Below, one piece after another: positions 4,256 to 16,723 of a DNA stretch of 34,194 nucleotides. The translations under genes and the position numbers were made by a program. Position 1 is the stretch's first letter. The number at the start of each line of letters is the position of its first letter. The stretch spans positions 1-34,194 of the forward strand of contig SVFG01000020.1 in assembly GCA_015056975.1 (NCBI GenBank). The letters run 5' to 3'. The notes under the pieces were generated by a model. It had not been told where the DNA came from. It saw nothing but the letters and a program-made list of their open reading frames with translations, and did no database searches. The DNA is from Lachnospiraceae bacterium (GTDB lineage: Bacteria > Bacillota > Clostridia > Lachnospirales > Lachnospiraceae).

Positions 4256-4861
4256 ATGCTGGTTTTATGTTCAAACGGCTTATCAAGTAAAGAAATTTTA
4301 TCATATACAAGTGAAAAGGTATGCTTTTGTAAAACTGCCGCATTAGTAGTTACTGCGGACAATGAATACAAAGAATCCAATTATCATGTATCAAGATGTA
4401 TTTCTGAATTAGAATCATTAGACTTGAAGGTTGATGTTTTTGATTTGGATAAGCAACCTGCAGAATTGTTGTTGGATTATAATGTTGTGGAATTCATCGG
4501 TGGGAATCCGTACTATTTACTGCATTCTGTCAGAGAACACAATGCCACAGAAATATTAAAGGAGATTGCGACAAACAAAATATTGATTGGCTGGAGTGCG
4601 GCGGCATTTGTGTTTAGTCCTACGCTTGAATTGGTAAATTGTTATTCTCCTGAAATGAATTTCTTGGGTTTAACGGATTTAAGAGGCCTTTCGTTAACGC
4701 AGATACAGGTTTTGCCCCACTATAGCAAATTCCTTTCAAGATTTGACCGATTTGAAGAAAGATGCTGTGAATATGAAAAAGAACACAATGTTAGTGTCAT
4801 TCGTATTAATGATGGAGAAGGCGTATTTATTGATAAAGGGATATATGTCTGCAAGATATAA
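4256..4861 (+). CDS. Peptidase E / S51-like (type 1 glutamine amidotransferase-like) protein
   Basis: FIGGNPYYLL, GWSAAAFVFSP (nucleophile elbow) and LPHYS. Confidence 0.75.
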   Translation: MLVLCSNGLSSKEILSYTSEKVCFCKTAALVVTADNEYKESNYHVSRCISELESLDLKVDVFDLDKQPAELLLDYNVVEFIGGNPYYLLHSVREHNATEILKEIATNKILIGWSAAAFVFSPTLELVNCYSPEMNFLGLTDLRGLSLTQIQVLPHYSKFLSRFDRFEERCCEYEKEHNVSVIRINDGEGVFIDKGIYVCKI

Positions 4862-15057: not shown

Positions 15058-15091
15058 GAGGAAGCTTAAAGTTTAAAACAATAAATTAAAA

Positions 15092-15108
15092 TTTGTTGCG
15101 CCAACAAA
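15092..15108. repeat. Short perfect hairpin TTTGTTG-CGC-CAACAAA
   Basis: 7-bp perfect arms, 3-nt loop, just upstream of the alternating-motif array. Confidence 0.6.
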
Positions 15109-15132
15109 CGGATTATCTTTCTTACTATACGT

Positions 15133-15357
15133 TACCTACTACTATATTATTTTGCTAGCGACAGTGGGTATTTTTCTTCTTTCCAAGAGATAGAGTACCC
15201 TCACAAACACGCTTTAATGTCTTCAGTAGGTAAAATAGTCTTCCAAAAGATAAGATTTACCTGCTAGCAGAAATCATACATATGCCTAGTTGGTAAATCA
15301 TTTCGAAAACAACTATAATATACCGACTCAGAAACCACTTCAACCAATCAGTAGGTA
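15133..15357. repeat. Regular array of alternating inverted 8-mers (TACCNNCT / AGTNGGTA), about 62.5-bp period
   Basis: Motif starts: 15133 TACCTACT, 15163 AGTGGGTA, 15196 TACCCTCA, 15225 AGTAGGTA, 15258 TACCTGCT, 15288 AGTTGGTA, 15321 TACCGACT, 15350 AGTAGGTA. Intervals are 30, 33, 29, 33, 30, 33, 29. Confidence 0.85.
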
Positions 15358-15419
15358 TTGCTTTACTATTTTCAGGGATATTTTACGTTTATAAATCAAA
15401 ATTGCAACAAACCATTCAA

Positions 15420-15466
15420 AACATAGTCTCTGTATATTATTGCGTTTAGTAAACAGAGACTATGTT
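15420..15466. repeat. 14-bp perfect inverted repeat AACATAGTCTCTGT/ACAGAGACTATGTT
   Basis: Arms 15420-15433 and 15453-15466, 19-nt loop; T-rich stretch follows. Confidence 0.75.
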
Positions 15467-15492
15467 CAATAATTTTTTTGTCTACCGTCTGA

Positions 15493-16312: not shown

Positions 16313-16723
16313 ATGACAGAAAACAAAAAACTGAACAAAAAAGTCATTGGCGGAATCGTAGCCCTGGTTGCTTTAATCGCAATCTTTGTAGCAATATTCA
16401 TTGCATTCCGCCCAAAGCCCGCAGAGGGAAGTAAGGCAATTACCATCACGGTGGTAAATGATGCCAAGGAATCCAAGACCTATGAAATAAAAACAGATGT
16501 TGAATATTTAAAGCAGGCAATGGAAGAGGCAGAGGGCCTTACCTTTGAATGTGACGGAACCGGTATGCTGATGACGGTAAACGGTGTAACTGCAGACTGG
16601 AACGTAAACCAGTCCTATTGGGCACTTTACGTAAATGATGACTACGGTCAGTTTGGTATCAGCGAACAACCGGTATACGACGGGGACGCATTCCGTATCG
16701 AGTATACCATATCTGAGTTTTAG
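16313..16723 (+). CDS. DUF4430 (transcobalamin-C-terminal-like) membrane-anchored protein
   Basis: N-terminal TM helix VIGGIVALVALIAIFVAIFIAF; YWALYVNDDYGQFGISEQPVYDGDAFRIEYT typical of DUF4430; downstream of cobalamin riboswitch. Confidence 0.85.
   Translation: MTENKKLNKKVIGGIVALVALIAIFVAIFIAFRPKPAEGSKAITITVVNDAKESKTYEIKTDVEYLKQAMEEAEGLTFECDGTGMLMTVNGVTADWNVNQSYWALYVNDDYGQFGISEQPVYDGDAFRIEYTISEF

Follow-up and report, generated by a model that had tools for sequence, protein, structure and literature searches.

Phased arrays of alternating inverted words in Lachnospiraceae genomes, probably recognised by a linked family of small nuclease-like proteins

In the RAYT/REPIN systems, dispersed repeats are maintained by their cognate nuclease, which is encoded by a single gene copy and inherited vertically (PMC8049555), and the enzyme and the repeat have co-evolved (PMC8266576). 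Phased protein sites also occur in iterons and in partition arrays of the parS/parC and sopC type, which are usually confined to a single locus on each replicon and function in replication or partition. CRISPR arrays consist of direct repeats of identical sequence, separated by unique spacers of uniform length, and are accompanied by cas genes. Here, we analysed a 34,194-nucleotide contig of a Lachnospiraceae bacterium (GCA_015056975.1, SVFG01000020.1; hereafter the window), which carries a noncoding array of alternating 8-mers. The initial annotation had rightly set it apart from CRISPR, as its 8-mers alternate in orientation and its spacers are homologous between copies. We consider it likely that this solo array belongs to a family of recognition arrays on double-stranded DNA and that one lineage of nuclease-like proteins of ~260 amino acids would read each kind. 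Such a system of gut clostridia, combining a small nuclease-like family with arrays of its own word, is apparently undescribed, as judged from Pfam, NCBIfam, PADLOC, PHROGs, the PDB and a subset of open-access papers, in which nothing relevant on nuclease-linked repeat arrays was found.

Sites and geometry of the window array

The array spans 15133–15357, is assigned to neither strand, and consists of eight sites in strict alternation, present at all the starts given by the initial annotation. The plus-strand sites are TACCTACT (site 1, 15133–15140), TACCCTCA (site 3, 15196–15203; its last base departs from TACCNNCT), TACCTGCT (site 5, 15258–15265) and TACCGACT (site 7, 15321–15328). The minus-strand sites are AGTGGGTA, which reads TACCCACT (site 2, 15163–15170), AGTAGGTA, which reads TACCTACT (site 4, 15225–15232, and site 8, 15350–15357), and AGTTGGTA, which reads TACCAACT (site 6, 15288–15295). 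The core TACC starts at 15133, 15196, 15258 and 15321, and the core GGTA at 15167, 15229, 15292 and 15354. The core steps are, in order, 34/29/33/29/34/29/33 bp; therefore, the distance from TACC to GGTA is 33 or 34 bp, the distance from GGTA to TACC is always 29 bp, and the period is 62–63 bp.

Could a chain of this kind arise by chance? When the longest alternating inverted chain was sought with the word and the spacing left free, it reached 8 sites within 15058–15480, compared with mostly 3–4 and at most 6 in 400 dinucleotide-preserving shuffles. The initial observation is confirmed. The remaining 423-bp tiles of the window gave chains of 5 or fewer. With a less strict score, which counted links between 4-mers, the window array could not be told from shuffles because A/T-rich words inflate that score.

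The array contains no ORF, as had been noted, and starts 76 bp past a GNAT acetyltransferase gene, with a cobalamin riboswitch beyond. It belongs to a solo element whose whole extent, 15118–15467 on the plus strand, is defined by homology to a copy on contig C97. The 3′ end of this element is a terminator-like inverted repeat followed by a T-run (15420–15466, plus strand), which is partly present in the C97 copy and missing from a further copy on contig C72. An Rfam search of the window returned the downstream riboswitch (RF00174, 15615–15875, 59 bits) as its sole match and nothing over the array itself; the next clear ORF on the riboswitch strand, at 16313–16723, encodes a DUF4430 domain.

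Array words, helical periods and the linked protein family

When the window array was used as a DNA query against 99 relatives, the source genome alone was matched. The arrays are too diverged for such a search, and spacing patterns were therefore used. The strict two-period pattern TACC N29–30 GGTA N25 TACC N29–30 GGTA gave ~70 matches, spread over 9 of the 138 genomes from the genus (a single match in one of the nine, G145), compared with 1 genome for the reversed control pattern. Over 85,488 species genomes, it returned 92 stretches, mostly from Lachnospiraceae; matches in Bacteroidetes, Cytophagales and Spirochaetaceae (L056, L063, L064 and others) were set aside, as they fit in several overlapping registers, like short-period (~21 bp) tandem repeats. 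The TACC core is constant, while the bases that follow it vary by genome (TACCTACT, TACCTCCC, TACCACCG, TACCCAAA, TACCGCCT, TACCATTG, TACCCGCG and others), and the extended words are species-specific and mostly uniform inside one array. The steps of 33–34 and 29 bp are kept with nearly no exceptions, and the arrays are oriented either way relative to neighbouring genes. Thus, relatives do carry homologous arrays that keep the period while the sequence drifts, the outcome for which the initial annotation had asked.

Other repeats were also encountered in these genomes. Composite repeats of ~1 kb, in which a TACCTCC array with a 62-bp period adjoins a tandem repeat with a 53-bp period, recur at several loci of G148 and G116 (L034, 6947–8005; L036, 569–1777; L041). 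A different dispersed repeat of ~110–130 bp (L195, about 4552–4661; G018:C33:147579–147710) has dozens of copies in G018, G105, G148, G116 and G011, and one of its copies has an apparent empty site in G105. The region at G018:C33 is repeat-rich, which defeated an empty-site comparison there.

Where two arrays lie 1.1–2.4 kb apart, the gene between them often encodes a member of one uncharacterised ~260-amino-acid protein family, as at four loci (L042, L067, L115 and L122), with a broken reading frame at L115. The protein had no credible match in Pfam or NCBIfam, and a PDB sequence search returned nothing convincing. Its C-terminal half matches the nuclease domain of PDC-S68, a candidate defence protein in PADLOC (1e-23 to 1e-29). 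The motifs KSE, YE, DF and EHxG are invariant in the family, and KSE, (P)DF and EHxG supply the invariant E, D and E expected of a PD-(D/E)XK enzyme; conservation does not extend to the canonical final lysine. An AlphaFold2 model (pLDDT 89) compared with PDB folds gave matches that all had E ≥0.05 and were mostly PD-(D/E)XK enzymes (R2 endonuclease, Exo5, FAN1, RecE, MunI). Judged by its motifs and modelled fold, the C-terminal domain is a predicted PD-(D/E)XK-like nuclease domain. The N-terminal half is modelled as a long helical hairpin (coiled-coil) with beta strands or a beta-hairpin, and this region resembles no solved structure and no known DNA-binding domain.

A profile search found the family in 130 of 397 Lachnospiraceae genomes, which represent 118 of 334 genera, and sporadically in other families of the class. 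Plasmid or phage copies are few, and no partner gene recurs beside the family gene. Viral contigs hold eight relatives of ~720–1330 amino acids that align over the nuclease domain only. MT839528.1, a contig from human faeces labelled Bacteriophage sp., encodes at 380–1120 a relative of nearly full length, with 93% covered at 36% identity.

The gene and the array are linked, a connection that was out of reach of the initial annotation. All eight array-positive genomes of the genus examined for the gene carry 2–9 copies of it, compared with 6 strong and 2 weak gene matches in 25 other genomes of the genus (hypergeometric p about 0.0002 to 0.001, calculated by hand). We then applied a detector blind to word and period, which accepts an alternating inverted array up to 700 bp upstream, to genes that had not been selected on arrays. 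It found an upstream array at 40 of 74 gene copies compared with 10 of 179 control genes, and 7 of these 10 control positives were the known TACC arrays on account of which the control loci had been retrieved. In other families of the class, 12 of 18 gene copies had an upstream array. About half of the unselected gene copies have no detectable array. TACCATT arrays are also present in G289 (C33, C73; L054, L048), a genome 97% complete in which a search with the L067 protein found no family member; this genome has either a more distant nuclease or else orphan arrays.

The periods of 51 gene-linked arrays fall at 42.6–44, 51.6–54, 60.7–63, 74, 81 and 86 bp, with nothing between; at about 10.45 bp per helical turn, these groups correspond to 4, 5, 6, 7 and 8 turns. 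The phasing has a Rayleigh R of 0.85, a value that ignores shared ancestry, although the agreement extends over at least five period classes. This quantisation supports one of the readings offered at the outset, a protein-binding array in helical phase. Furthermore, the period class follows the protein tree, on which it requires 14 changes, whereas 1000 label shuffles required 21 on average and never fewer than 15. Each gene's array has its own word, and the words cluster on the same tree, with TACCTAC in one clade, GCAACAT in another, and CGTA-containing words in the 53-bp clade.

Another empty-site comparison showed a gene at the site in both genomes (G018:C18, locus L237, and G105:C37, locus L236); between the two species, the flanks are 95–97% identical and the gene and array region 72–78%, a pattern that suggests replacement or fast turnover.

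Solo arrays and their copying within genomes

Solo arrays are copied within genomes. The source genome has two homologues of the window array, on C97 and C72, and the resulting three TACC solo arrays have an identical site order and 75–81% identity over 258–362 bp. Both of these homologues are intergenic, one lying between flagellin and a convergent gene and the other after another GNAT gene. Between the window and C97, 32 of 32 core bases are identical, compared with 76% of spacer bases. The C97 copy is a 342-bp unit bounded by perfect 13-bp direct repeats, AAAAGACGGAACC (L002:1396–1408 and 1751–1763), and its homology to the window stops within 5 bp of these borders. The flanking direct repeat is found at the C97 copy only: the copies in the window and on C72 show no such repeat, and none of 9 bp or more was seen when six copies other than that on C97 were compared. 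In a further genome, SIG305, two solo arrays are 96% identical over 322 bp. Several arrays of SIG305 (L076, L103, L123) have a common outer end, CTTAATCAATTACC, which may be the element terminus. No TACCTAC-clade nuclease was found in the fragmented, 85.6% complete source assembly, and the window array is therefore formally an orphan within the assembled part.

Can an array that adjoins a nuclease gene predict solo arrays elsewhere in its genome? The source genome has five members of the nuclease family, and on contig C163 the gene order is rplM, rpsI, an array with AACGTA at 31 + 21–22 bp, and the nuclease. A pattern derived from the C163 array recovered that array and four solo places in the source genome (C97:3924, C113:20420–20552, C118:1466–1682 and C147:5262), and it gave no match in seven other genomes, in which relatives come with different words; the reversed control also gave none. 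These results indicate that the gene-linked array predicted solo arrays of the same word and that the prediction held; since the C163 pattern finds four solos, the AACGTA word is common, in trans, to the gene-linked and the solo arrays. The solo arrays on C113 and C118 are mutual copies (75% over 297 bp), and neither has a BLAST match to the C163 array. Among the AACGTA solo copies, the cores agree at 53 of 54 bases compared with 70% of spacer bases (p 3e-6). Site cores are thus conserved while the spacers drift, and the pairing of arms is not conserved. The nuclease gene is found at rpsI in ten genomes of nine genera, one of them outside the family Lachnospiraceae, and because this location recurs across genera, the rpsI-linked member looks long maintained in place.

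Interpretation and comparison with known systems

Are the words read as RNA or as double-stranded DNA? The initial annotation preferred a tandem-hairpin structured RNA, with neighbouring inverted words as the stems of a transcript. Adjacent words are indeed inverted, some of them pair over 8 positions, and a terminator-like hairpin closes the element. The common loop sequence noted initially is real (15181–15192 and 15241–15252 are identical at 11 of 12 positions). The pairing over all 8 bp that was claimed for the window holds for sites 4–5 and 6–7, with one wobble each, but not for sites 3–4, 5–6 and 7–8, which mismatch at position 5 or beyond. Across arrays, neighbouring arms pair at positions 5–8 in 84.7% of cases compared with 83.8% when sites are shuffled within arrays, and hence no covariation supporting stems was found in this comparison. 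Moreover, two-word arrays, with one word per strand, break the stems, as seen for TACCATCA and TACCTGCA at L091 and L107 and likewise for TACCTACT and TACCAACC at L094. The array has no Rfam match, the periods are helically quantised, and arrays occur in either orientation to genes. The near-shuffled pairing, the two-word arrays and the helical quantisation favour double-stranded protein sites and leave the RNA reading very improbable. TACCATCA and TACCTGCA also alternate on opposite strands at L142, and two-word arrays such as those at L091, L107 and L142 might depend on a heterodimer or on two separate proteins. Since phased arrays occur at several points of the chromosome, they could, in principle, be chromosome-organising or partition sites for a protein with no relation to the nuclease, whether ParB-like or a nucleoid protein, but the word and period differ between sister genomes, tracking the nuclease tree, and most relatives are without arrays. 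The centromere, partition or iteron role mentioned initially finds no support in arrays that are multiple, dispersed and chromosomal, and we give this explanation next to no weight.

It is conceivable that the nuclease represses its own gene through the arrays and that the solos are relics left after gene loss. The position of the detected gene-linked arrays, upstream of the gene in 45 of 53 cases, speaks for such an operator, yet some arrays lie downstream or flank the gene on both sides. The three TACC solos have both site order and spacers in common, and the AACGTA solos copy each other with no BLAST match to the gene-linked array. As independent relics would not resemble each other, that origin is disfavoured, and the explanation as a whole is unlikely, although autoregulation could be an added role. 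We regard as similarly unlikely a defence or addiction module in which the arrays titrate or restrain a toxic nuclease. The relationship of the nuclease domain to that of candidate defence helicases and the patchy distribution (130 of 397 genomes) would suit such a module, but the rpsI-linked clade, unlike defence islands, has the same location from genus to genus and also in a second family, plasmid and phage copies are few, and no partner gene recurs.

Recognition of the arrays by the linked nuclease-like family therefore remains our preferred reading. According to this model, the protein would bind the short alternating words on one face of the helix as an ordered assembly, for which the steps between words would sum to a whole number of turns; the quantisation at 4 to 8 helical turns suggests just such an assembly along one DNA face. 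The nuclease genes tend to have arrays of their own words directly upstream, and same-word arrays are also copied to other intergenic places of the genome concerned. The protein presumably also cuts DNA, and, by analogy with RAYT/REPIN, its cutting might drive the copying of arrays. We put forward tentatively, at somewhat less than an even chance, that a PD-(D/E)XK nuclease recognising phased, alternating double-stranded arrays drives the copying of solos in a selfish or domesticated system, an unrelated counterpart of RAYT/REPIN in Clostridia. Copying of the arrays by the nuclease would amount to a new mechanism for mobile elements; otherwise, a major group of gut bacteria would still have a nucleoprotein array that is undescribed and calls for a functional explanation. 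The system is found in about a third of the sampled Lachnospiraceae genomes. In addition, as the words differ between genomes, each protein and its DNA site would form a natural pair in which to study the evolution of binding specificity.

How does this system compare with those already described? The C-terminal nuclease domains of PADLOC PDC-S68 and PDC-S69 are homologous to that of the array-linked family, but the PDC-S68 models are of ~1200 amino acids, with the nuclease domain at the C-terminus, and their annotation includes no arrays. Like MITEs and other non-autonomous elements, the solos are short, noncoding, intergenic copies, one of them with a 13-bp direct repeat; unlike MITEs, they appear to lack terminal inverted repeats such as a known transposase would use, contain a phased array, and vary in array length. 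Iteron and partition arrays likewise consist of phased protein sites, but the arrays of this family are dispersed, alternate in orientation, and are accompanied by a nuclease. The system is somewhat like RAYT/TnpA-REP and REPIN systems (REPtrons), with which it has in common a long-maintained chromosomal nuclease gene adjoined by its cognate repeat and same-word repeats that are dispersed in intergenic DNA and coevolve with the enzyme; an enzyme gene flanked by its own repeat, with the same repeat dispersed, is what was found at C163 and the four AACGTA solos. A Y1 transposase (Y1_Tnp, PF01797), rejected as a partner of the arrays, is absent from the source genome; it is present in 3 of 14 genomes, and those without it include G000, G144, G107, G148, G018 and G116. 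RAYTs are HUH (Y1) enzymes acting on single-stranded hairpins, whereas the enzyme here is PD-(D/E)XK-like, and, in contrast to REPINs, the arrays occur in few copies and comprise 4–20 phased, separate sites whose pairing is not conserved. Because the enzyme fold and the repeat structure differ and Y1_Tnp is absent from the source genome, the system does not belong to RAYT/REPIN; if the proposed reading is true, bacteria would have two unrelated solutions to nuclease-linked dispersed repeats, of which this is the second.
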